A DNA stretch of 64,000 bases from a virus, in IMG/VR virus record IMGVR_UViG_3300021960_006627, positions 1-64,000 of that record; one strand, 5' to 3'. The notes under the pieces are model-generated. The model was given only the letters and a program-made list of their open reading frames with translations, ran no database searches and was not told the origin of the DNA. Shown piece by piece: positions 40,652-53,861 of the stretch. Within the stretch, counting starts at the first letter, position 1. Every line of letters begins with the position of its first letter. A program made the translations under genes and the position numbers.

Positions 40652-43315
40652 TTACTCAAAATCAAATAATTTATTAAAGTTATTGTCATTTCGAGTTTGA
40701 CTAATGTCCCATTCCAATACACCAATTAAGTTTTTAAGTTTTTCATCGATAACTGTATTTTCCATAGTAGCATCATCGAATGGTAAATCCTTAAACCATT
40801 CCGGCAGTCTTAGTTCATCTACCGGATATGCCACACTTGTGTAACCCATTGGGTTATCCTTAACCTTACAGACAATGACCTTTGCACCGTCTGTGATATT
40901 CACTGAATACTTGTCACCGTTCATGCGTTTAAGTGTGTTCCAATTAATACTTGCTCGAACGTGTCCAGGCATATTTGCCTTTCCTGCTTTCTTTTCTTTG
41001 GCTTCATACTCAGTAATCTTGTTTGCACGTTTAGGCGAACCTTTTTCCCAACCAGGACGTGCTTTGAATTCTGTTCTAAATTCTGTAATGTAATCCAATA
41101 CATCTTCCTTTTCTTTTCCTGACAGAACCATTTCCAATACGTTACTTAGGAAGTCTTGGATGACAACAGGAGTATCCGAACGCTTGAGATCGAGACCCAT
41201 CGCCTTAATTTTACCTGGCTTGCCCTCTGTGTCTGTTCTAAAACCTTCAATGTCATAGTAGAGAACTGCATATCTTTTCTTTGTAATAAACAGTCCTTTG
41301 CTCGCAACAATTTCTCTAGCAGCCGCAATCACTTCCGAACGCTTCTTGGGACAGTGAAATGCTTGGCTCATAAATTTTCCAAATGTGGCATTTGTAGTTT
41401 CGCCGATAGTGTCATACAGTTCTACAACGCTATCCTTTGTCCAAGGAATAGTTCCTGCGTCAATATCTTTCTTAAGTGTGCTATATGCACTAAAGTATGT
41501 AGAATCTGTATCACCATAAACAATTGCCTTACCTGTATGATCATAGTCGCCTGTTACGATCTCATTGATTTTAGCAGCCATGTGTTTGGTAATGCTTCGT
41601 CCTGTAAGTGTAACACTCTGACCAATCCTGTTGTCGAAAAATCTACAGCCTGGATTTAGGATTGCACCATACAAACTGTTGAGCAAAATCTTCTTGACCA
41701 ACTGTCGCTTTGCCCAGTATTCTTCTTCAATCTTGTTGCCTGCGTTCTGGCTTTCCTTCTGCTTGGCCTGCATCTCCTTACGTTCCTTGTACCAACGTGC
41801 GAGTAGGCCGGGTATCACGCCTTCCTTTTCATAAGTGAAGATTGTGCCATTGGCACTCAGCATCCAAGGTTGGTTGCTTTCATAGATTAAATCATATATC
41901 TGTGCGGCACTTAATGTATCGTTGTCACCGTTCTCCCAATCAATTGTGATCTGTCTGCCTATTTCCTTTTCCATTACAGAACTGTATTCAACACTACCAA
42001 ACATACCTTCCCATGCACTTGCAAAGGATTTGCCCTTGGCCATTTGTCCATCAATGTGTGCTTTGGTACCATCCTGCCGTAGTTGCCCAACAACAGTTTC
42101 AGGCCCCATGTTCAATGCTCTAATAACACTAGGATACAGTGAATTCAAGTCAACCGATCCAATCCACTCGTGTATGCCCTTCTTAGGATACGCAACATAA
42201 GCACCTGCTGCCGGCTCTGAGCCAGGCTCACGTTTCACTCTGTTCGGAACAATCATTCCACGTCTGTGTGCTTCGTTGATAATGCCCTGTTCTGTAACAG
42301 CAACAGCACCCATTGTGGTTTGTATAAGCACAGTGTTTTCGTGTGCAATAGTGTTTGCAAGGTCAATAAACTTTAGTTTCTTGTCCAGTTTATCAAGCAG
42401 TGCAGTATCCTGCCTGTTGTATTCAATGAACGTTCTAAAGTCATTGTTGTATAGTGCATCAAGGCTTCCTTCATACACGGTTTTCTTTTCGCCTACTTCT
42501 AGTTCGCCAATAGCATCTAGTCGATATGTGTGTCTTTCTTCATAGTTGTATTTTCTGTAAAGTTCCAAACTATCCACATGCACACGACCAACTAGATCAT
42601 ATGTTGTAGATTCCTTACCAAACTTTTCATATGTTCTTTTTTTAGGATATTGATCCCACAAGCACAAACGTCTTGTATCTTCTTTGCTTAAAACTTTAAT
42701 AATACGGTTAACAGTGTAGGGCATATCATAACCTTCACTGTTCCAGCCACTTAGCACATCCGCATCCTGTATCAGGTCAAGAAACGCATCAAGCATATCC
42801 GCTTCGTTTTCATAAAGTATTGTGTTTGGAATACCTTCAATTGCCTTTTGTGCTTCTGCCATCGATAGTGTCTTAGGTGGAATAGCAAGACAGATTAGTT
42901 CTTCCATCCACTGCAAATGCACCGCAATGGAAGTGATTGGCATGAATGCATCCTCAGGAGAAGCATAGCCACGCTCCGGATCGAAATCAACCTCAATATC
43001 CCAAAATGCAACATTCAGTTTTGGTGCATCAATGTTTAGATAGTTGTCTTCAAGACAACGATAGATAGGATTAATATCGCTTTCGTATAATTTCTTGTTG
43101 GAATGGATCGCAAGTTCCTTGCGAAGTTCTTTAATATTCTTTGCACTTACTCGCTGTAGTGCTTCACCATAGATTGATTGGTGCTTTCCTCTTGGATCTT
43201 TATAATAGAATATGTGTCGGGGTTGATACTCTGTGAAACTTCTCTTGCCGTTCTTTCTTTCGACAATTCGAATAATGTCTTCGTTGCGATCATAGAACGC
43301 ATCTACGTAACTCAT
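40652..43315 (-). CDS. 43: Family B DNA polymerase (gp43)
   Basis: 887 residues, near T4 gp43 (898). Exonuclease acids Asp106 and Glu108 in F-W-D-I-E-V, and Y-N-R-Q-D near 299; polymerase motif A D-L-N-S-L-Y-P-S at 389-396, motif B K-K-I-L-L-N-S-L-Y-G-A at 541-551, motif C Y-G-D-T-D-S at 600-605. All catalytic aspartates are present, so the enzyme should be active in synthesis and proofreading. The C-terminus ends in acidic-aromatic D-F-E, like the clamp-binding tail of gp43. GGAG lies eight bases before the ATG. Confidence 0.97.
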   Translation of the reverse strand: MSYVDAFYDRNEDIIRIVERKNGKRSFTEYQPRHIFYYKDPRGKHQSIYGEALQRVSAKNIKELRKELAIHSNKKLYESDINPIYRCLEDNYLNIDAPKLNVAFWDIEVDFDPERGYASPEDAFMPITSIAVHLQWMEELICLAIPPKTLSMAEAQKAIEGIPNTILYENEADMLDAFLDLIQDADVLSGWNSEGYDMPYTVNRIIKVLSKEDTRRLCLWDQYPKKRTYEKFGKESTTYDLVGRVHVDSLELYRKYNYEERHTYRLDAIGELEVGEKKTVYEGSLDALYNNDFRTFIEYNRQDTALLDKLDKKLKFIDLANTIAHENTVLIQTTMGAVAVTEQGIINEAHRRGMIVPNRVKREPGSEPAAGAYVAYPKKGIHEWIGSVDLNSLYPSVIRALNMGPETVVGQLRQDGTKAHIDGQMAKGKSFASAWEGMFGSVEYSSVMEKEIGRQITIDWENGDNDTLSAAQIYDLIYESNQPWMLSANGTIFTYEKEGVIPGLLARWYKERKEMQAKQKESQNAGNKIEEEYWAKRQLVKKILLNSLYGAILNPGCRFFDNRIGQSVTLTGRSITKHMAAKINEIVTGDYDHTGKAIVYGDTDSTYFSAYSTLKKDIDAGTIPWTKDSVVELYDTIGETTNATFGKFMSQAFHCPKKRSEVIAAAREIVASKGLFITKKRYAVLYYDIEGFRTDTEGKPGKIKAMGLDLKRSDTPVVIQDFLSNVLEMVLSGKEKEDVLDYITEFRTEFKARPGWEKGSPKRANKITEYEAKEKKAGKANMPGHVRASINWNTLKRMNGDKYSVNITDGAKVIVCKVKDNPMGYTSVAYPVDELRLPEWFKDLPFDDATMENTVIDEKLKNLIGVLEWDISQTRNDNNFNKLFDFE

Positions 43316-45091: not shown

Positions 45092-46033
45092 TTATTTGCC
45101 GCAGTTTGGACCACAGTTGCAATCGTCGCCGCAATTGCCTTTGCACTCGCAATCTGGACCACAGTTACAATCCTTTCCTTCGTTTAAGCCTTTTTCAACA
45201 ACGTCATACATTTCAAAACGTCCGCCGTTTCTTTCATATAGCATTGCAGCAAAAATTTCCTGCTTGTTTGTTTCTTCAACTTTTGAAACAGCAACTCTGT
45301 TTGCCCAGTTCCAAAGAACATCGTCCATAGGATCGATAGCCTGCTGTCCGCCGCTTTCGCGTACCATCTTCATCATTTCAACGAATGACATCTTAGGTTC
45401 AACGGATTCCTTGACCGTTTCTTTTTTCTTTTTAGGTTCTTTGGCTTCGTCCATTTCTTTATCATCAGACTTCTTGCCTTTTACCATATTCTTAAATTTT
45501 TCCTGTGCTTTCTTCTGTGCTGCTGATTTCTTAGCCTCAACTATTTCGCCGTCCATGTCTTCAAATGTAACGGATTCGTTTTTCTTTTTCTTCTTGTATT
45601 CTTCCATACAAGACTCAATCATTTCTTTTAATTTTTCTTGATCGCAGCCTGAATATTCCTTGCAAATTGCTGCTTTAGTCATGCCCTTGCCACACATTAA
45701 TAAAACTTCTTTCTTGCTAGGCATTTTTTCTTTGTTGTCGCCTTTTTCTGCTTTGACAACTTGTTCTGCTTCTTTTACAGGCTCTTTCTTTTTCTTAGCA
45801 TCTTTAGCAGCCTTCTTCATAGGCTCTTTCTTGTCGCCATCTTTGTCCATATCAAGAAAGTCTGGTTTTGCTGCTTCTTTTACTTTTGAATCTTTTTTCG
45901 CTTCGGTAACTACTTCTTTAGCACCCAGCGCAATACCTGTTGATTCCGCCAGTTGTGTGAAATGCTGTAAATCCTGACCTGGCGTAGTAGGATCTAATTC
46001 GCGCATCTTTTTAATTATATTTCTAAAGTCCAT
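45092..46033 (-). CDS. Charged putative capsid-cargo protein with metallothionein-like tail
   Basis: 313 residues, mostly Lys/Glu/Asp/Ala-rich and probably partly disordered, as in phage internal core proteins. A central part has C-G-K-G-M-T-K-A-A-I-C-K-E-Y-S-G-C. The last 25 residues hold seven cysteines in C-N-C-G-P-D-C-E-C-K-G-N-C, then C-N-C-G-P-N-C-G-K, a repeated pattern like metallothionein metal sites. It starts after GATAAATAC and AAGGA, heads the minus-strand end of the cargo-like block, and is followed by an intrinsic terminator. Structural/internal head role inferred from block context. Confidence 0.6.
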   Translation of the reverse strand: MDFRNIIKKMRELDPTTPGQDLQHFTQLAESTGIALGAKEVVTEAKKDSKVKEAAKPDFLDMDKDGDKKEPMKKAAKDAKKKKEPVKEAEQVVKAEKGDNKEKMPSKKEVLLMCGKGMTKAAICKEYSGCDQEKLKEMIESCMEEYKKKKKNESVTFEDMDGEIVEAKKSAAQKKAQEKFKNMVKGKKSDDKEMDEAKEPKKKKETVKESVEPKMSFVEMMKMVRESGGQQAIDPMDDVLWNWANRVAVSKVEETNKQEIFAAMLYERNGGRFEMYDVVEKGLNEGKDCNCGPDCECKGNCGDDCNCGPNCGK

Positions 46034-46055
46034 CGTAGTTTCCTTTGTATAGTAA

Positions 46056-46064
46056 GTATTTATC
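46056..46064 (-). promoter_or_regulatory. Late-promoter-like box GATAAATAC
   Basis: Lies 23 bases upstream of the 46033 gene; expected start near 46050 leaves room for the AAGGA ribosome-binding site. Confidence 0.6.
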
Positions 46065-46473
46065 TTCTTACCGGGTTCTCACCAAAAATACTATTCTTCA
46101 TATCCAGCGCATTTTTAGCAGTTCCGTTGGCTGCTTTTGGCTGTTTAACCACAGGTTGTGGTGGTGCTTTTGTACCTGATTTACCAGGACTTCCTGTATA
46201 TGACTTCTTACCACGTGCTTTGCCTGGGCTTAGATGTGGTGCTTCTACACTTGCTATATTACCAGAACTCGTAGCGCCTGCTGTGGCAGATTCCATCTTT
46301 TCTTTATCCTTGTCCAATGCTGCTTTACGCTTCATTATTTCTTTTTTAAGTTCAGGATCCTTTGATGTGTTTGGATCTGCCTGTAGATCCTGTAGTGCTT
46401 TTTGTTTCGCGTGGTAATCAGCCTTGTCTTTTGTAGGCGTATATGCTTCTGAAAATAGTTCGTTTAATTTCAT
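46060..46473 (-). CDS. Putative head-targeted basic protein
   Basis: 137 residues from the ATG at 46473. The N-terminus M-K-L-N-E-L-F-S-E-A resembles T4 capsid-targeting peptides. A charged helical part (A-K-Q-K-A-L-Q-D-L-Q-A-D-P) is followed by a Ser/Gly/Lys/Pro-rich region (A-R-G-K-K-S-Y-T-G-S-P-G-K-S-G). No folded enzyme domain. The ATG is five bases after a GCTAAATA box and lacks a clear ribosome-binding site. An upstream in-frame start at 46518 would overlap the neighbour gene. Role as packaged internal protein is inferred. Confidence 0.6.
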   Translation of the reverse strand: MKLNELFSEAYTPTKDKADYHAKQKALQDLQADPNTSKDPELKKEIMKRKAALDKDKEKMESATAGATSSGNIASVEAPHLSPGKARGKKSYTGSPGKSGTKAPPQPVVKQPKAANGTAKNALDMKNSIFGENPVRR

Positions 46474-46476
46474 ATT

Positions 46477-46485
46477 ATTATTTAG
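46477..46485 (-). promoter_or_regulatory. GCTAAATAA box five bases before ATG
   Basis: Minus-strand box beside the 46473 gene, overlapping the end of the 46482 gene. Leaderless start predicted if used. Confidence 0.35.
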
Positions 46486-46682
46486 CCCTTGTTGCGTCCG
46501 CTTTTCATATTTGCGCACCAGTGATACATTTTAGCACGTTCTCCACTAGCATTTTTAGCCTTTTTACGTAGGCTAGTTACGCTTCCTTTACAACTAGCAC
46601 CAGCACGTTTTACACGTCCTGGACGGCTCTTGCCCTTCTTCTTACCATCAGCAAAGTTTTCAACTAGTTCAAATATTCTCAT
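46482..46682 (-). CDS. Small basic two-cysteine protein with capsid-targeting-like start
   Basis: 66 residues: M-R-I-F-E-L-V-E-N-F then K-K-K-G-K-S-R-P-G-R-V-K-R-A-G-A-S-C-K-G-S, then R-A-K-M-Y-H-W-C-A-N-M-K-S-G. The first eight residues end L-V-E before Asn, a fit to the T4 prohead-protease rule (L/I-x-E). The remainder is very basic with two cysteines, probably DNA-binding. This basic module recurs in other marine phages as I recall. Overlaps the next upstream gene by four bases. Confidence 0.65.
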   Translation of the reverse strand: MRIFELVENFADGKKKGKSRPGRVKRAGASCKGSVTSLRKKAKNASGERAKMYHWCANMKSGRNKG

Positions 46683-47656
46683 TTCTTCTTGCGTCCTGCG
46701 CAGTGTGCTTTTTGGCTAAAGCCCTTTGGATTAGAGCAGTTGATGCTTTTCTTGTATTTGGCACTCCACTTTTCTTCTATGTAATTTCTAATTAGGCTTT
46801 GGAAACTTTCTTCTATCTCTGCCTTTAGTTTTTTAGCAGTCCTCTCAAACTTGTGATCCTTGTGCTTGAACCCTATGCCTCCGGCACTTTCCCACGCTGC
46901 AATATTAACACCATAATCGTCAATGAGGATATTAGGTGTGCCGTCGGGGTTTGTCGCATACTTCGCCTTATCCTTTGTTATGATGACTTCAGTTGGTGGG
47001 AAGAAGTCTAGATTCTTTTCAATCCATTCGCGCTTGTGTGGTTCCGATTTAGGATCGTTAGCCAATGGTGAACTTAGAATCTTGTAGTTTCCTTTAACCT
47101 GTTTAATAATGCCGAGTAATTTTTTTGCGTTTGATGTAAGAGGAATGTTTAACCAAAAGTCTTCCTCGTCTCTAATTTTTTTAAGTGCTGGTTCGATTTC
47201 GTCCTTATTAATTTCTCTCCAGTCCTTGCCTACCAACTTCTTCCACTCACCAAAGAAGTCTGCTAGAACACCATCCATATCAACATATATTTCTGATTTA
47301 GGATTTAGTCCTTGGAACATATCCTCATAGGCTATGCTTTCCTTTTTCTTTTTCTTCTTGGGGAATAATTTCTTAACGTTCATGTATTCGCCGCCTACGG
47401 GAACGTCTGCTGTTGCATTCTGTTTTGTAACTATGCCAACACCTGCTGCTTCTTCAGATGTTTTCTTTTTGGTAGGTAATCCCTTGTGCTTGGTTTTAGC
47501 AAAGTCTTTGACATCACTCTTTTTCATATCTTTAGCAACTTTGCCTGCTTCGCCAGACTTTTTCATATCGCCCTTTTGCATTGCTCTTACAATACCAAAG
47601 AACTGCTGCTGCTTTTTGCTAACTGCTTTTTCAGATATGATCTCGTATGCTCTCAT
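46679..47656 (-). CDS. Composite protein: targeting peptide, DUF3008-like domain, HAD/5'-nucleotidase domain, basic Cys tail
   Basis: 325 residues from the ATG at 47656. The start M-R-A-Y-E-I-I-S-E-K fits a capsid-targeting peptide. Residues about 12-60 (K-K-Q-Q-Q-F-F-G-I-V; K-K-S-D-V-K-D-F-A-K-T-K-H-K-G-L-P) match the small DUF3008-type domain. Then E-I-Y-V-D-M-D-G-V-L-A-D-F is motif I of HAD phosphatases of the 5'(3')-deoxynucleotidase kind, with I-L-I-D-D-Y-G-V-N as the Mg-binding strand later. The end C-S-N-P-K-G-F-S-Q-K-A-H-C-A-G-R-K-K is a basic two-Cys tail. Could enter the head and act on nucleotides or DNA ends; inference. Confidence 0.7.
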   Translation of the reverse strand: MRAYEIISEKAVSKKQQQFFGIVRAMQKGDMKKSGEAGKVAKDMKKSDVKDFAKTKHKGLPTKKKTSEEAAGVGIVTKQNATADVPVGGEYMNVKKLFPKKKKKKESIAYEDMFQGLNPKSEIYVDMDGVLADFFGEWKKLVGKDWREINKDEIEPALKKIRDEEDFWLNIPLTSNAKKLLGIIKQVKGNYKILSSPLANDPKSEPHKREWIEKNLDFFPPTEVIITKDKAKYATNPDGTPNILIDDYGVNIAAWESAGGIGFKHKDHKFERTAKKLKAEIEESFQSLIRNYIEEKWSAKYKKSINCSNPKGFSQKAHCAGRKKK

Positions 47657-47853
47657 TCTATGGGTTTCTCGCCTGTTAGTTTTGGTAGTGCGAACCACAA
47701 CTTAAACCATTCAGGGGTTCCTGGTTGTATGTTGTGTTTCTTTTCTAGATATTGTTTTTCCGTGCCTGTGATCGATAGATTGGGTCCGTCATATGCTTTC
47801 CAGCCATGACGTTCATAGATGCCCGCAAGTCTTTTTAACTCTTCTATCTCCAT
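47653..47853 (-). CDS. Small conserved hypothetical protein
   Basis: 66 residues: M-E-I-E-E-L-K-R-L-A-G-I-Y-E-R, then E-K-Q-Y-L-E-K-K-H-N-I-Q-P-G-T-P-E-W-F-K-L-W-F-A-L-P. The last part recurs in cyanophage proteins, as I recall, with unknown role. The ATG touches the upstream stop and the stop overlaps the composite gene (ATGA), so it is tightly coupled to the block. Confidence 0.6.
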   Translation of the reverse strand: MEIEELKRLAGIYERHGWKAYDGPNLSITGTEKQYLEKKHNIQPGTPEWFKLWFALPKLTGEKPIE

Positions 47854-48794
47854 TACATCTTAACACAATTATCAACTCGTTTGCCACCCTTCATCTTGGT
47901 GCCCATGCGCTTGTAGCCTTTCCAGCATACCTTGCCATCAACGCCCTTTTGCTTTTCTTCATTAACACTTTCATACTGCTTTTGCATTTCTTCTGGTAGT
48001 GCCGTAAAGCGAGCCTTGCCACATTCTGAACATACTGCTTCGTTTGTTCTTTTTAATGCTTTGGCTACACTAGGATGGTCTGCTAGTCCAGGAGCAATTT
48101 TGTTTATCACTTCCACTGCACCCGTGTAGTTACCGCCCTTGTATCTTGGATCGTTTAAAACACCAAAGGCCATCTTGATTTCCTTGTCGGAAAATCCTAT
48201 GTTGTCCTTGTCGTGCATGTCCTCTTCTGTTCTATCTCCATCAACATCAGGAACGTTTAGTTCATTTTCCAAGTAATGTTTGGCCTTGCTGATCATTTGT
48301 AGGCTCTTAACAACCTTTGCCTGCCACCAGTGGGGGAAATCACTGTCAGCGGGTAGGTCTTCTAGCATTTCAAACATCTCTTTGGCATACTTTGCCATTT
48401 GGTAAAGTTCCTTGCGAATCATGTTACGCTCATCATCTGTATGTCCGATAGGGGTATTTTCGGTTGCTACAGATTCTTCTTTTTCATCTTCATCTGGCTT
48501 AGGATCCGGATCCTTAACTTTTTGTAATGAAGTGTCCTTTTGCTGTTGAGCCCATTTCATCATCTTCAAGATCTGTTCCTTACTCAGTCTAACCTTTTTA
48601 GAAAGTTCGTCTATGCTTGATGCTCCGCCAGGCTCACCGTATCTTGTTAGTTCGTCACCGAGTCTACCTAGCACGTTTGATAGTGCGTCATCCTTGACTG
48701 TGACTGATTTATCCATTAGTATTCTTCCCATTCGGGCAAGTTCTCCACCTGCCGGATTAGTATATGCCGATCTTTCTTTATCCATTATACCCAT
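47853..48794 (-). CDS. Multi-part putative internal head protein with basic Cys tail
   Basis: 313 residues. Begins with Y-T-N-P-A-G-G-E-L-A-R-M-G-R-I-L and D-A-L-S-N-V-L-G-R-L-G-D-E-L; then a helical middle (I-R-K-E-L-Y-Q-M-A-K-Y-A-K-E-M-F-E-M-L), a segment A-F-G-V-L-N-D-P-R-Y-K-G-G-N, then C-S-E-C-G-K, and the tail V-C-W-K-G-Y-K-R-M-G-T-K-M-K-G-G-K-R-V-D-N-C. Each part looks like a small module found in other marine phages. GGGG lies before the ATG. No enzyme motif. Structural or packaged role inferred. Confidence 0.6.
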   Translation of the reverse strand: MGIMDKERSAYTNPAGGELARMGRILMDKSVTVKDDALSNVLGRLGDELTRYGEPGGASSIDELSKKVRLSKEQILKMMKWAQQQKDTSLQKVKDPDPKPDEDEKEESVATENTPIGHTDDERNMIRKELYQMAKYAKEMFEMLEDLPADSDFPHWWQAKVVKSLQMISKAKHYLENELNVPDVDGDRTEEDMHDKDNIGFSDKEIKMAFGVLNDPRYKGGNYTGAVEVINKIAPGLADHPSVAKALKRTNEAVCSECGKARFTALPEEMQKQYESVNEEKQKGVDGKVCWKGYKRMGTKMKGGKRVDNCVKM

Positions 48795-48808
48795 TGTTTT
48801 CCCCTTGT

Positions 48809-49423
48809 TTAATCCTCGGTATTATCCGATAATCCCATTCCTTTTCTTACTGCGGCGAATAATTCTTCCGCATGTTCTCCAGCACCTGTGTGTGCTGTGA
48901 AACTTTTTAAATCGTTATTAGCGGCATCTTCTCTTGCTTTGGTTCCGCTTATGCCTTCAACACCCTCTGCTCCGTCCTCTCTTGCGCCTGCGCTTACAAA
49001 CTCAAGAGTTTCAAATTTGTATTTGTTTTCCAAAGGACCCTTCTTTCCCTCTTCCTTTCCGTTGTATGCAACCAATTGATCGTATAAATTCTTTCTATCA
49101 TCTCCACCCACGAATGTTGCATGTGTGTAGCCTTGGTCATTTAGATATTGTGCAACCTTGGTTATTGTGTTTAGGTTCGTGTCCTCAACTACATTATCTG
49201 CATATTCAGAATGTATCTTTCTAATAAAATCTACCTTGGCAGAATAGTCTAGTGGATTCTTTTTTGCGTCCTGGCTCATGGTAGTAAAGATTTTCATGTC
49301 TCCTCCTTGTGCCTTCATTTTTTTGAAAACTTCCTTGTGTCCTAAGGTAGGAGGATTAAACCTTCCAAAGCAGAAGGTTACGTGTTTGTCAGTATCTGCT
49401 TCGAATAATTCTCTAATCTTCAT
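48809..49423 (-). CDS. Nucleotidyltransferase with capsid-targeting-like N-terminus
   Basis: 204 residues from the ATG at 49423 (a GTG three codons earlier is possible). Residues 1-10 M-K-I-R-E-L-F-E-A-D fit a targeting peptide with L-F-E before Ala. From residue 18, F-C-F-G-R-F-N-P-P-T-L-G-H is the nucleotidyltransferase T-x-G-H site, and I-S-G-T-K-A-R-E near residue 160 is the second signature (I-S-x-T-x-x-R). The family includes NMN adenylyl- and cytidylyltransferases; the substrate is unknown. The C-terminus ends in charged residues. It overlaps the upstream gene by 11 bases. Confidence 0.75.
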   Translation of the reverse strand: MKIRELFEADTDKHVTFCFGRFNPPTLGHKEVFKKMKAQGGDMKIFTTMSQDAKKNPLDYSAKVDFIRKIHSEYADNVVEDTNLNTITKVAQYLNDQGYTHATFVGGDDRKNLYDQLVAYNGKEEGKKGPLENKYKFETLEFVSAGAREDGAEGVEGISGTKAREDAANNDLKSFTAHTGAGEHAEELFAAVRKGMGLSDNTED

Positions 49424-49748
49424 AGTCGCCACGCTCTATGTATTTTTCCTGTTCTCCGGAAATAGTTCTCGCTAATGCTATAATATTTTCCTTATTAATT
49501 TTGTCCTGCATGTCTTCTATAGAAAATTTATTACAGTACATTTCTTTACACTGTTCTAATGGCTTGATATATATTTTATAAGCGTCAGGATGACCTTTAT
49601 ATTTCATGTGTTTCTTAATTGCAGGAAACAATACTTTACTCATTACTTCATTATCACTATCGATGAATATCTTTAGATCTTCGATATAGTTTATGTCATC
49701 GTTATCCGATGGTGCGCCTATGGGTGAGAATAATTCATTTAGTTTCAT
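49413..49748 (-). CDS. Conserved hypothetical protein with 'MKLNELFSPIGAP' start
   Basis: 111 residues. After the amphipathic start it has a helical domain: I-E-D-L-K-I-F-I-D-S-D-N, F-P-A-I-K-K-H-M, H-P-D-A-Y-K-I-Y-I-K-P-L-E-Q-C-K-E-M-Y-C. This order is typical of a conserved protein of marine T4-like phages, as I recall. The two cysteines are in the Q-C-K-E-M-Y-C phrase. Position in the block suggests a head or packaging role. Confidence 0.6.
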   Translation of the reverse strand: MKLNELFSPIGAPSDNDDINYIEDLKIFIDSDNEVMSKVLFPAIKKHMKYKGHPDAYKIYIKPLEQCKEMYCNKFSIEDMQDKINKENIIALARTISGEQEKYIERGDYED

Positions 49749-49751
49749 CAG

Positions 49752-50432
49752 TTACCATTTCCTACATGACCAGTATCGTGCTTTTGTTCTTGGACCCGGG
49801 TTATCACAATTGTGTCTAGCACGGAATGATTTTCTACGTGCTGGATTAGATTTTTTAATACGCATATTAGGATCACCAAAATTTACTTTCTTTACATTTT
49901 TAGTCTTTGGATCTCTGACATATACCTTAAACTTTTTAACATCACCCTGCATGGGTTTGCCAAGTTTAACCTTGCGTCCTCTGTATTCTGCTTCATCTAC
50001 AATATCTTCGTGCCAAGGTAAGAAACCATAATACTCGTAGAACTCCTCACCTTCAAATGTTTGTTCGTCGGATTCGTCTGCGCTTTCCCCTTGCGAGTAT
50101 TTGTTATCGGAATTCTTGATAATATCCATAGCATCGTCAAATGCAGCATCCATTGCTGCTTCGTGATCCGGACCATCGGATTGGACAACAGCAGTTGCTA
50201 GTTCGTCGTCTAGTTTATTGTTGCCGTCGCCTTCTGCTTCACCTCTTAGCGAGTTAGGATCAACTTCAGCATAGTAACCATGCTCATCGCTTTGCTTAAT
50301 TTGTGCTTTGTAGTATAGTGTTCCGAAGCCTGTTTCACCATCATCACCAGTAAATTCAAATTCAGTCTCACCCTCCATTTCCTTGGGCATGAAACCTTCT
50401 AATAGTTGTAGTTTGTCCAATAGATCTCGCAT
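49752..50432 (-). CDS. Putative packaged protein with basic Arg/Cys tail
   Basis: 226 residues. Start M-R-D-L-L-D-K-L-Q-L-L-E-G ends L-L-E before Gly, a good prohead-protease rule match. The first 150 residues are acidic. The last 75 are basic: Y-R-G-R-K-V-K-L-G-K-P-M, then K-V-N-F-G-D-P-N-M-R-I-K-K, then R-R-K-S-F-R-A-R-H-N-C-D-N-P-G-P, then R-Y-W-S-C-R-K-W. This C-terminal module recurs in other phages as I recall. It could fold on DNA inside the capsid. An imperfect late-type box lies 28 bases upstream. Confidence 0.65.
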   Translation of the reverse strand: MRDLLDKLQLLEGFMPKEMEGETEFEFTGDDGETGFGTLYYKAQIKQSDEHGYYAEVDPNSLRGEAEGDGNNKLDDELATAVVQSDGPDHEAAMDAAFDDAMDIIKNSDNKYSQGESADESDEQTFEGEEFYEYYGFLPWHEDIVDEAEYRGRKVKLGKPMQGDVKKFKVYVRDPKTKNVKKVNFGDPNMRIKKSNPARRKSFRARHNCDNPGPRTKARYWSCRKW

Positions 50433-50847: not shown

Positions 50848-51526
50848 GGTTTATCACGTATTTGTGAACTCTGCCTAGTACTTCTGATGACCTTAATTTA
50901 ATCATTAGTAGTGTGGATTCACTATCAACGTATATGTATCTACGGTCCCAATTTGATTCAGTAGAAAGCAACCACTTTTTAATAGAACTAGTAAATGTAA
51001 TATTTGGTCTTTGATTATCTAACCAATTTGCTAATGCAGCCTTTTCGTCCCGTCTAACTCTATGTGGTTTGAGATATACCTTAAATTGATACTTGTCGTG
51101 TGGTAATTTCTTGCAAAAAATTTCTTTATTGCTTTCTAGCAATTGTTGTTCCTTGCCTTTTTCCGGTTGTGATCTTAATACACAAAATTGTTCGAATTCT
51201 AATCCTATTGTATTATACATAGATTTATCATTGGTGTAAAAATCTATATAATCCCCTTCTAGTCTCTTGGACCATGTCTTATTATCATATTGATTTAATA
51301 TGCCTATAAGTTTTATCCAATGATGTGAATTATCACGTAGTTCCTTAAATACTCTATCTCTCCATTTTGTTCCTTCAGAGAAGTCCTGCTGAACGCATTT
51401 GTTTAATACTTCATCCAATGAATTATATCTAAGAGATGCGCTTCCTTTTAAGTTTAACGTAATTTTATAGATGTATTTGTTATAAAACTTTTTTTTCGTT
51501 TTTTTAGGTGTCGGAAGTTTGTTCAT
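50843..51526 (-). CDS. Basic conserved hypothetical protein
   Basis: 227 residues, with a lysine-rich start (T-P-K-K-T-K-K-K-F-Y-N-K-Y-I-Y) and a C-terminal K-K-W-L-L-S-T-E-S-N-W-D-R-R-Y-I-Y-V-D-S-E-S-T-L-L-M-I-K-L-R that I recall in marine phage proteins of unknown role. Predicted alpha/beta. No catalytic residues identified. It overlaps clpA by 23 bases, so it follows clpA in the same transcript. Confidence 0.55.
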   Translation of the reverse strand: MNKLPTPKKTKKKFYNKYIYKITLNLKGSASLRYNSLDEVLNKCVQQDFSEGTKWRDRVFKELRDNSHHWIKLIGILNQYDNKTWSKRLEGDYIDFYTNDKSMYNTIGLEFEQFCVLRSQPEKGKEQQLLESNKEIFCKKLPHDKYQFKVYLKPHRVRRDEKAALANWLDNQRPNITFTSSIKKWLLSTESNWDRRYIYVDSESTLLMIKLRSSEVLGRVHKYVINR

Positions 51527-53861
51527 TTTCCTGCTGTTCCTTGCTTGCTTTTTCCTCTAGGGCTTTTGCTTTAAGTGCTTTCTTTTCAGCCTTTGTAAGA
51601 GGTTTAGGCATCTCTTGGATGTCAAAAACAGGTTCATTATCCGAAATGCTAATAGTAACCTTTCCGCCATTAACTAAATCGCCAAACAATACTTTTTTAC
51701 TTAAAGGTGTTTTAATCTTGTTATCGATTATTCTTGACAATGGTCTAGCACCCATCTTAGGACTATACCCTTCTTTAGATAACCAATCAATAGCATCCTG
51801 TTCTGCATTAATTAAAATATTTTTATCTTTTAATTGTGCATTTAAGTCGCTTATAAATTTCTTTACAATGCTTGACATAACACTTGATGATAATTTATTG
51901 AACTTAATAGTACCATCTAATCTGTTTCTAAATTCAGGAGTAAAGAATTTTTTAACTGCCTTCTCGTCCTCATCATCTTTTTCGAGGTCATCAAAGCCAA
52001 TTGTATTTGTTTCATTATCGGCAGCACCGAGATTTGATGTCATAATAAGAATTGTGTTTCTACCGTCAGCCTGCTTGCCGTTGCTTCCCGTAACAAATCC
52101 ATTATCCATAAATTGTAAAAGTATGTTAGATACATCTTGGTGTGCTTTTTCTATTTCATCTAATAATAGTATAGCGTTTGGACTTTCTTGCAATTTAGTA
52201 ATCAACTGTCCTGCATTTTCTTCATAACCAACGTATCCCGGAGGAGCACCAATTAATCTTGCCACCGAGTGTTTCTCTTGATATTCACTCATGTCAAAAC
52301 GTAAAAGTGTCATGCCCATTTTTTCAGCAAGTTGTTTCGCTGTTTCGGTCTTACCACAGCCTGTTGGTCCAAGGAATAAGAAACTACCGATTGGTTTATT
52401 AGGTGATTTTAATCCTGCTTGGGCAACAAATATTTTATCCAAGAGTGTTTCAACGGCACTATCCTGGCCATATACCACTGACTTCATTGAGCCTTCAAGG
52501 CCTGAAAGATTTTTACTTTCCTTCTGGGCAACAGTTTCTAAAGGCATATTAATCATCTTAGAAAGTTCGTATGTAATTTGTTCAACATCGACTATCTGTT
52601 GTACTCCTTCTTCAACTGGATCATCATTTAATTTGTATCTTGCTGATGCACAGTCTATGATATCAATAGCCTTGTCAGGTAGTTTTTTATCAGCCATGTA
52701 TTTTACTGATAACTTAACTGCCTGATCGATCGCTTCATCGGTAATGGCAACATTGTGATGATTCTCGTAATACTTTTTTAGGCCCTTGATAATTTTTACA
52801 GTAAGTTCTGCTGTAGGCTCGTCAATGGTCAATCTATGAAAACGTCTCATTAAAGCACGATCCTTTTCAAAGTACTTGCGATATTCCTCCCAGGTAGTTG
52901 AAGCAATCACTTTAAGATTTCCTTTAGCAAGAGCAGGTTTAAGCATGTTTGCTAGATCGTTTGAATTTTGACTCGCAGTTCCTGCACCACTCATCATGTG
53001 TGCTTCATCAATGAAAAGAATAATTTTTCCTTTTCTATCCAGCGCCATAAGAACCGCTTTAATTCTTTCTTCAAAATCGCCACGGTATTTTGAACCAGCA
53101 ACAAGTGCTCCGATATCCAAACTAAAAACGGAATGATCCTGAATAAACTTAGGAACTTTCTTTTCAAAAATCTTTCTTGCTAGTCCTTCTGCTATAGCGG
53201 TTTTACCCACCCCAGGATCACCAACTAATAAAACATTGGATTTATTTCTTCTAGCGAGTACTAGTTCTATGTTTTCTATTTCATCGTCACGTCCAATTAC
53301 AGGATCAATAACTTTTTGTTTTGCTTTTAAGGATAGATTATCACAGAAAGTGTTAATAATTTTATCCATTTGATCGTTTGACAATGCTGCTTCTCTTCCT
53401 TCTTCTGCAAATGGATCTTCATCACCTATGAAATGATCTTGGAAATGCTGTACAAATTTTTCTTTTGTTATACCACCTTTGGTAAGGAAGTAAAATGCAA
53501 ATGAATTCTTTTCAGATAATATGCTTATAATAACATCAGCAGTTTCCATTTGATTACGACCGCTGAATAACACTTGTGTGAAGCATCTATTTAAAACACG
53601 TTCGACGGTGTTTGTTTTTTTAGGAACAAAAATTTCTTCTGTTGTTATAATATCTTTTAGATTGTTCTTTAGATAGTGTTCAATATTTGATCTAATATAT
53701 TCAACATCAGCACCATATGCCTTTAAGCCTTCGTACGAATCTTTATCAGAAAAGATTGCAAAAGTAAGATGTTCAATTGTAATAAGTTTGTGCTTGAACT
53801 TTTTTGCTATTTCAATTGAGTCGTCAAAAATCTTTTGTAGTTGTTGGCTAGGCTCTATCAT
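51504..53861 (-). CDS. clpA: ClpA-type AAA+ unfoldase
   Basis: 785 residues. N-domain (1-140), then Walker A G-D-P-G-V-G-K-T at 214-221 with F-I-D-E-A-H at 283-288, and a second ATPase with G-P-T-G-C-G-K-T at 498-505 and L-L-L-D-E-I-E-K-A near 565. There is no ClpB middle domain. I-G-F at 621-623 lies where E. coli ClpA has the I-G-L that docks on ClpP, followed by the same F-F-T-P-E-F-R-N-R-L-D. So it should load host ClpP. Starts after AAGGAA; overlaps def by 14 bases. The enzyme may degrade host or phage proteins during infection. Confidence 0.93.
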   Translation of the reverse strand: MIEPSQQLQKIFDDSIEIAKKFKHKLITIEHLTFAIFSDKDSYEGLKAYGADVEYIRSNIEHYLKNNLKDIITTEEIFVPKKTNTVERVLNRCFTQVLFSGRNQMETADVIISILSEKNSFAFYFLTKGGITKEKFVQHFQDHFIGDEDPFAEEGREAALSNDQMDKIINTFCDNLSLKAKQKVIDPVIGRDDEIENIELVLARRNKSNVLLVGDPGVGKTAIAEGLARKIFEKKVPKFIQDHSVFSLDIGALVAGSKYRGDFEERIKAVLMALDRKGKIILFIDEAHMMSGAGTASQNSNDLANMLKPALAKGNLKVIASTTWEEYRKYFEKDRALMRRFHRLTIDEPTAELTVKIIKGLKKYYENHHNVAITDEAIDQAVKLSVKYMADKKLPDKAIDIIDCASARYKLNDDPVEEGVQQIVDVEQITYELSKMINMPLETVAQKESKNLSGLEGSMKSVVYGQDSAVETLLDKIFVAQAGLKSPNKPIGSFLFLGPTGCGKTETAKQLAEKMGMTLLRFDMSEYQEKHSVARLIGAPPGYVGYEENAGQLITKLQESPNAILLLDEIEKAHQDVSNILLQFMDNGFVTGSNGKQADGRNTILIMTSNLGAADNETNTIGFDDLEKDDEDEKAVKKFFTPEFRNRLDGTIKFNKLSSSVMSSIVKKFISDLNAQLKDKNILINAEQDAIDWLSKEGYSPKMGARPLSRIIDNKIKTPLSKKVLFGDLVNGGKVTISISDNEPVFDIQEMPKPLTKAEKKALKAKALEEKASKEQQENEQTSDT

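Follow-up and report, generated by a model that had tools for sequence, protein, structure and literature searches.

A putative head-cargo locus with T4-like capsid-targeting leaders in an uncultured marine phage

The stretch of viral DNA analysed here, referred to as the window, comprises positions 1 to 64,000 of the IMG/VR record IMGVR_UViG_3300021960_006627, the total length of which is 79,803 bases. By inspection, genes for the gp43 polymerase, gp45, gp44, a Clp ATPase and further proteins assign the window to a T4-like myovirus, and Pelagibacter phage HTVC008M and the Kyanoviridae are its nearest named relatives in the several genes compared. Nine open reading frames (ORFs), P2 to P10, lie on the minus strand at 45092-50432. 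They are situated between the gene of the gp43 DNA polymerase (40652..43315, minus strand), a marker of the conserved position of the locus, and that of a Clp-type ATPase (51504..53861, minus strand), which marks its other side. Five of the nine (P2, P4, P7, P8 and P9) start with leaders of 8-12 residues in the style of the T4 capsid-targeting sequence (CTS). The sequences make it probable that the block holds the cargo genes of this marine T4-like phage, the products of which would be packaged into the head by means of the leader, a reading to which a probability of roughly 0.8 is assigned. Delivery of the packaged proteins into the host is likely as well.

Leaders and the gp21 cleavage rule

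All of the T4-like starts quoted in the original prediction are present on the minus strand, and one of them, MKLNELF, occurs twice, running into FSE in the ORF at 46060-46473 and into FSP in that at 49413-49748. Several leaders end in L/I-x-E, as had been claimed. A gp21-type site is found at the end of the leader in P2 (MRDLLDKLQLLE|G, 50397-50432; site LLE|G), P4 (MKIRELFE|A, 49400-49423; LFE|A), P7 (MRAYEIISE|K, 47630-47656; ISE|K) and P8 (MRIFELVE|N, 46659-46682; LVE|N). The P7 leader retains Y4 and the E-hydrophobic-hydrophobic-x-E core. P9 begins with MKLNELFSE|A (46447-46473).

The leader pattern is carried by 4 of the 9 block genes and by none of the 70 other genes of the window (Fisher P=8e-5, a value that is indicative only, the pattern having been composed after inspection of the block). 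The same locus is found beside gp43 in three large relatives (146-165 kb), where the pattern matches 12 of 30 genes inside the locus versus 3 of 453 outside it (P=1e-13). Related loci, 196 in number, were retrieved by homology to the block genes. A stricter pattern, derived solely from T4 IPII/III, gp22, gp24 and Alt, matches 36 of 1981 gene starts, compared to 1.3 in composition-preserving shuffles (maximum 4), and does not occur at any of 8572 internal methionines. The looser, window-type pattern is present in 278 of 2027 unique genes and at 0.3% of internal methionines.

The residues around the putative cut show preferences as well. Where the pattern leaves the P3 position of the site free, it is occupied by L or I in 52 of 82 leaders (63%), against a background of 16% (1e-21). 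The P1' position is A, G, S, D or N in 161 of 250 leaders versus a background of 29% (5e-31), and hydrophobic residues are avoided there. These preferences match the L/I-x-E rule established for cleavage by T4 gp21 (PMC9026906).

The nucleotidyltransferase and virion proteins of cultured relatives

The original prediction placed a nucleotidyltransferase and a HAD phosphatase in the block, and both were recovered by profile searches. P4 (204 residues, 48809..49423) matches CTP_transf_like PF01467 (1.7e-7) and phrog_3041/395, a cytidyltransferase; the phosphatase, P7, is of the HAD/NT5C type (PF06941, 4.4e-8). The P4 motifs GRFNPPTLGH and SGTKAR fall in conserved columns and agree with the (H/T)xGH and ISxTxxR-type signatures. 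An AlphaFold model of P4 has a predicted local distance difference test score (pLDDT) of 86. Its residues 1-9 are disordered (pLDDT <50) and the fold begins at about residue 12. Foldseek relates the model to the fold of NaMN adenylyltransferase (NaMNAT) and phosphopantetheine adenylyltransferase (PPAT), and a sequence search for close homologs of P4 and P7 with solved structures returned none.

The P4 family has been detected in virus particles. Mass spectrometry of S-SM1 virions identified the putative cytidylyltransferase T4-GC190 (PMC3037559), which belongs to the same nucleotidyltransferase family as P4, and the family was also found in S-CREM2 virions (PMC10665884 Table 3). The family members start with MKKFSAFLNE|A in S-SM1, MKNFSSFLTE|A in S-CREM2 and MKSFFQFLSE|A in S-SM2, closely following the leader of T4 IPII and IPIII, MKTYQEFIAE|A. 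The cyanophage orthologs fit the spacing of the T4 10-mer exactly. In T4, targeting depends on positions 4 and 7 of the 10-mer, occupied in IPIII by an aromatic residue and by F, and processing on positions 8 and 10 (PMC9026906); these are the positions conserved in the cyanophage 10-mers.

When 197 readable proteins of the S-CREM2 record OR473000 were tested with the template M..[YFLW]..F[LIMFV].E, it was found in 5 of 43 virion-detected proteins versus none of 154 undetected ones (P=0.0004), positions 4 and 8 of the template having been loosened after the data were seen. The five carriers are an S-adenosylmethionine (SAM) hydrolase, a kinase, the cytidylyltransferase, ORF13 and ORF136.

The same observations bear on another explanation, namely that the block encodes late cytoplasmic enzymes whose N-terminal helix is peculiar to the lineage; contamination would then account for their detection in cyanophage virion preparations, and coincidence for the likeness to T4. 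Short motifs match easily, and the S-CREM2 authors themselves raise the possibility that abundant proteins co-purify with virions (PMC10665884). This explanation is nevertheless very improbable. The four conserved residues are those mapped experimentally in T4, the 10-mer is missing from all the undetected S-CREM2 proteins, the T4-only pattern is missing from internal methionines, and in S-SM2 a leader meets a segment of the major head protein exactly at the cleavage junction, as described below.

A separate observation concerns S-CREM2 ORF12, a virion-detected Cas9-like protein in the same record. It contains a CTS-like stretch, RFASFMAE|A, which covers residues 17-25 and not the annotated start; judged from the sequence, the start may have been called wrongly or the leader may be longer.

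Copies of the gp23 N-terminal arm

T4 gp23 is cleaved after E65. The glutamate aligned with this residue is invariant in gp23 of S-SM1, S-CREM2 and the relatives G004, G005 and G007. The region around this site recurs in the P9 family, the proteins of which contain E|xATAGATSAGNIA[ST]V, compared to YLAE|NATAGATSAGNVATL in gp23. In P9 itself the copy reads ESATAGATSSGNIASV (46246-46293). A hidden Markov model (HMM) built from 24 P9-family arms was run against 904 proteins of five phages. Its three best matches were gp23 proteins, those of G005 (3.8e-8), G004 (7.7e-5) and G007 (1e-3), in each case at the cleavage site. Neither the arm copies nor the C-terminal modules discussed below figured in the original prediction.

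Similar copies are found in cultured phages. The virion-detected S-CREM2 ORF160 contains AAGATGFTGAAAPEGPVAGYDPLM, which corresponds to AVGADGFTGAAAPGGPNAGFDPVM in the gp23 of the same phage (score 95, best shuffle 48). A further case is SSM2_108 of S-SM2. It reads MKTLKQFLKE|TPTNSVGNGGYTSAGGQTVAGYD, and the gp23 of the same phage reads MIAE|QPTNAVGNGGYTSSGGQTVAGFD (score 119, best shuffle 51); the segments at the junction itself are MKTLKQFLKE|TPTNSVGNGGYTSAGGQTVAG and MIAE|QPTNAVGNGGYTSSGGQTVAG. SSM2_108 is therefore a T4-type leader fused to the gp23 arm precisely at the gp23 cut, and its C-terminus is the module of window P7 (KSIDCSNPKGFSQKAHCAGRKK). Of the sequence evidence for the leader glutamate as a gp21 site, this junction is the strongest piece. 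A tblastn search with the first 44 residues of SSM2_108 against 50,697 phage records matched S-SM2 only, in two places, presumably SSM2_108 itself and its own gp23.

SSM2_108 is located in the gp15-gp17 hypervariable region, and some leader proteins of relatives carry LysM, peptidoglycan-binding or chitinase domains, which are typical of tail enzymes. Both facts are compatible with a leader that directs attachment to the tail, neck or baseplate without gp21 cleavage. What the leaders match, however, are processing sites of gp21 and the junction in gp23, where cleavage is a head-specific event, so that attachment to one of these other virion parts is a far-fetched alternative to packaging in the head.

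An arm related to those described, from S-SM1 GC426, is present in 327 cyanophage records. Small proteins of the GC426 family that have only the arm in common (for instance at S-ShM2 156492, S-RIM8 148559 and Syn9 154447) bear the RefSeq name 'major head protein'. The gp23 gene of S-SM1 is elsewhere, at 113 kb, and the naming is probably an annotation artefact caused by the arm copy.

Some relatives lack the arm copy: the gp23 arm of G007 has a better local match to an unrelated protein, and that of G005 has no significant match in its own proteome. That each copy tracks the gp23 of its own phage was considered as a general rule and discarded. It is true in three of four cases, but the best-scoring arm for GC426 is that of S-CREM2 (70), and the S-SM1 gp23 scores only 62. 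The copying of the arm may reflect a contact with the shell or the core that cargo and gp23 have in common.

Interchangeable leaders and C-terminal modules

The start is common to all of 122 non-redundant leader proteins, which otherwise have a mean column identity of 3%. In several of them, recognizable domains begin past the leader: Cu/Zn superoxide dismutase (SOD) at residue 46, zeta-toxin-like kinases at residues 14-19, a poly(A)/CCA polymerase at residue 38 and a peptidoglycan-binding domain at residue 24, besides NT5C and DUF6267. Fe/Mn SOD, a GH19 chitinase and an amidoligase are found among the other leader proteins. A DUF3008-like domain stands behind the leader in P7 (MRAYEIISE|KAVSKKQQQFFG) and has no leader in S-SM2 GC1223 (MPAVSKAQQKFFG). 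Judged from these alignments, the leader is an interchangeable unit attached to otherwise unrelated proteins. Two Cu/Zn SODs (L050:5501-7189 and L097:5681-7711) have a leader-like start and, directly before the SOD domain, another stretch that resembles a leader (SEA).

Unrelated proteins reuse four short, basic modules with Cys residues, which in block members stand at the C-terminal end. That of P8, KMYHWCANMKSGR, was found in 90 proteins, 62 of which have a leader, and is borne by about 100 different or mosaic proteins in related contigs. The module of P7, [N/D]C..PKGFSQKAHC, is present in 25 proteins, that of P5, CWKGY...NC, in 33 and that of P2, RHNC...YWSC, in 35. P8 (66 residues, 46482..46682), in which the leader is fused straight to the basic module ...CKGSVTSLRKKAKNASGERAKMYHWCANMKSGRNKG, and Bellamy gp122 (MKSFKQFQE|SWSNKYKKSIDCSNPKGF...) are minimal proteins that consist of a leader and a module. 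There are at least 579 matches to the P8 module in IMG/VR, where it is common in uncultured marine phages. None was found for KMYHWCANMKSGR in 50,697 phage isolate records; therefore the function of the module cannot be read from cultured phages. Binding to DNA or to the core is a guess.

It might be supposed that the leader proteins are building blocks of the prohead core, that is, scaffold or size determinants that enter by means of the leader and whose fate at maturation, like that of T4 gp67 and gp68, would be degradation or loss, with no delivery. In favour of this are the small size and basic character of P8 and P9, the KRLAGI motif, which P6 shares with the end of gp22, and the start of gp22 itself in the relatives, MLDALKxLFE|N. 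Such a role is unlikely, however, because the bearers of leaders include complete enzymes that retain their catalytic motifs, as well as SODs, kinases and a CCA-type polymerase, and because orthologs persist in mature virions.

Other features of the locus

P2 (226 residues, 49752..50432) matches phrog_7595 (2e-11) and ends in the module RRKSFRARHNCDNPGPRTKARYWSCRKW (49755-49838). The same C-terminus is found in proteins of C48C1, G005 and L100, which start with MKKFKQYIDE, MKKTFKDYLAE and MKTFQEYLKEA, respectively. P3 (111 residues, 49413..49748) starts with the leader-like MKLNELFSP, which lacks the cleavage glutamate; its small counterparts at the equivalent position in relatives bear leaders such as MKLFEFVED. 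P5 (313 residues, 47853..48794) has no clean leader, ends in the module CWKGYKRMGTKMKGGKRVDNCVKM (47856-47927) and is locally similar to G004:5650-6669, which begins with MREKDLKE. P6 (66 residues, 47653..47853) starts with MEIEELKRLAGIYE and contains KRLAGI. The motif [K/R]RLAG[I/L] occurs both at the N-termini of the small P6-family proteins and at the very end of the gp22 scaffold in G004, G005 and G007.

For P7 (325 residues, 46679..47656), the first start of the ORF, at 47698, is situated upstream of the leader ATG, and the latter was taken as the corrected start. The DUF3008-like domain is encoded at 47465-47626, the NT5C/HAD 5'-nucleotidase at 46865-47290 and the C-terminal module KSINCSNPKGFSQKAHCAGRKKK at 46682-46750. 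P9 (137 residues, 46060..46473) has the C-terminus NALDMKNSIFGENPVRR. P10 (313 residues, 45092..46033) has no clean leader (MDFRNIIKKMRELD) and a Cys-rich C-terminus. Its weak local similarity to the virion-detected S-CREM2 ORF111 (score 148) is possibly compositional. PADLOC gave no defence-system matches for the block.

Weighing of the evidence

Several observations speak against a cargo locus. P3, P5, P6 and P10 have no clean leaders. The window leaders have 8-9 residues (12 in P2) compared to 10 in T4, and the P9 site, FSE|A, is a variant with F instead of L or I at its P3 position. Some pattern matches are spurious, as in the pterin dehydratases, which were rejected as cargo because the domain begins at residue 1 and the match to the leader is accidental. 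The virion detections are of proteins from cultured relatives, and the window phage is uncultured. The post hoc loosening of the S-CREM2 template and the caution of the S-CREM2 authors belong here as well. Genes for gp21, gp22 and gp23 were not found on the 79.8-kb fragment; gp21 is present with gp20, gp22 and gp23 in G004, G005 and G007, which carry the same locus. T4-like late-promoter matches are few: TATAAATA occurs 0 times in the window versus 5.3 expected, and TAAATAC variants precede P1, P2 and P10 (by 30-35 nucleotides in the case of P2 and P10) with no overall enrichment.

The central claim of the original prediction, capsid-targeting leaders on packaged enzymes, has strong if indirect support, and the prediction as a whole stands in part. 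The leader of P4 is predicted to be disordered and lies outside the folded domain; leaders are swapped between unrelated proteins, occur on virion-detected proteins of cultured relatives, those of the same nucleotidyltransferase family included, and in one cultured phage a leader is joined to the arm exactly at the gp23 junction. Cleavage and injection are predictions, and four of the proteins have no clean leader.

Proposed mechanism and its significance

By analogy with T4, a leader of the form M-[K/R]-x-x-[E/D/Q]-[L/I/F]-(x)-x-E would bind the gp22 prohead core and co-assemble with it. Gp21 would then cleave after L/I-x-E and free the mature protein, as suggested by the fit of the site to both the gp21 rule and the gp23 cut. 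The protein would be retained in the DNA-filled head, in line with the published mass spectrometry of the nucleotidyltransferase family in cultured cyanophage virions, and would enter the host with the DNA at infection. The copies of the gp23 arm and the basic Cys modules on some of the cargo probably provide extra contacts to the shell, the core or the DNA. The most likely role of the cargo is that of enzymes acting before phage gene expression, in nucleotide or cofactor metabolism in the case of P4 and P7.

The tags are attached to unrelated proteins, and particles of cultured viruses have already yielded a relative of one of the enzymes. It is therefore probable that the heads of these phages hold a variable set of enzymes, which may be delivered together with the DNA. 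A general modular head-cargo system of marine T4-like phages is more tentative. It would combine an exchangeable CTS leader with basic Cys modules at the C-terminus and with small adaptor-like proteins, in which the mature gp23 arm of the phage itself is copied beside a gp21 site, so that the cargo would dock on the shell or be processed with it. Its antioxidant, nucleotide and RNA-modifying enzymes would be active in the first minutes of infection.

The internal proteins of T4 have been viewed as a handful of small factors against restriction, together with Alt. In marine phages, which are abundant, the T4 address tag now seems to mark a large and rapidly changing group of proteins, enzymes among them. 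By means of the tag, virion cargo would become predictable from sequence, and 'hypothetical' and 'auxiliary metabolic' genes would become candidates for proteins that arrive before phage gene expression. The tag would also account for the recurrent cytidylyltransferases in cyanophage virion proteomes. The copies of the gp23 arm offer a specific new idea on how cargo engages the capsid.

Comparison with known systems

No description of a generalized leader-cargo system was found in the open-access literature, in which a single paper mentions capsid targeting and cyanophages together. The ejection (E) proteins of phages phiKZ and SPN3US, likened here by their description, offer a parallel: they belong to the head, carry propeptides that a prohead protease can remove, and undergo packaging and ejection. 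Their protease and their leaders are others.

The cyanophage virion cytidylyltransferase T4-GC190 is a closer counterpart, because P4 belongs to the same family, phrog_3041/395, and the cyanophage versions have T4-like 10-mers. The SAM hydrolase, kinase and Cas9-like virion proteins of S-CREM2 extend this comparison set. In contrast to the present analysis, the accessible parts of those reports do not describe the leader and leave open whether the proteins are true cargo; the window phage, unlike theirs, is uncultured. T4 Alt, the virion ADP-ribosyltransferase, is likewise an enzyme packaged by means of an N-terminal propeptide cut by gp21, and its start, MELITELFDE, resembles MKLNELFSE. The block carries other enzymes, and no Alt-like ADP-ribosyltransferase domain is among its Pfam and PHROG matches.

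The T4 CTS and internal-protein system (PMC3012670, PMC9026906, PMC12373910) is the principal model, and in its predicted proteins the block has the sequence features of the T4 CTS except for leader length. T4 IPI, IPII and IPIII share with the window family a short leader that opens with M-K/R, contains a hydrophobic pair and ends in a Glu, after which comes a small residue, as well as unrelated mature parts, small basic members and a variable locus. The window leaders differ in having mostly 8-9 residues rather than 10, and the cargo includes enzymes and multi-domain mosaics. Furthermore, the window family adds C-terminal Cys/basic modules, copies of the gp23 arm and a locus beside gp43.

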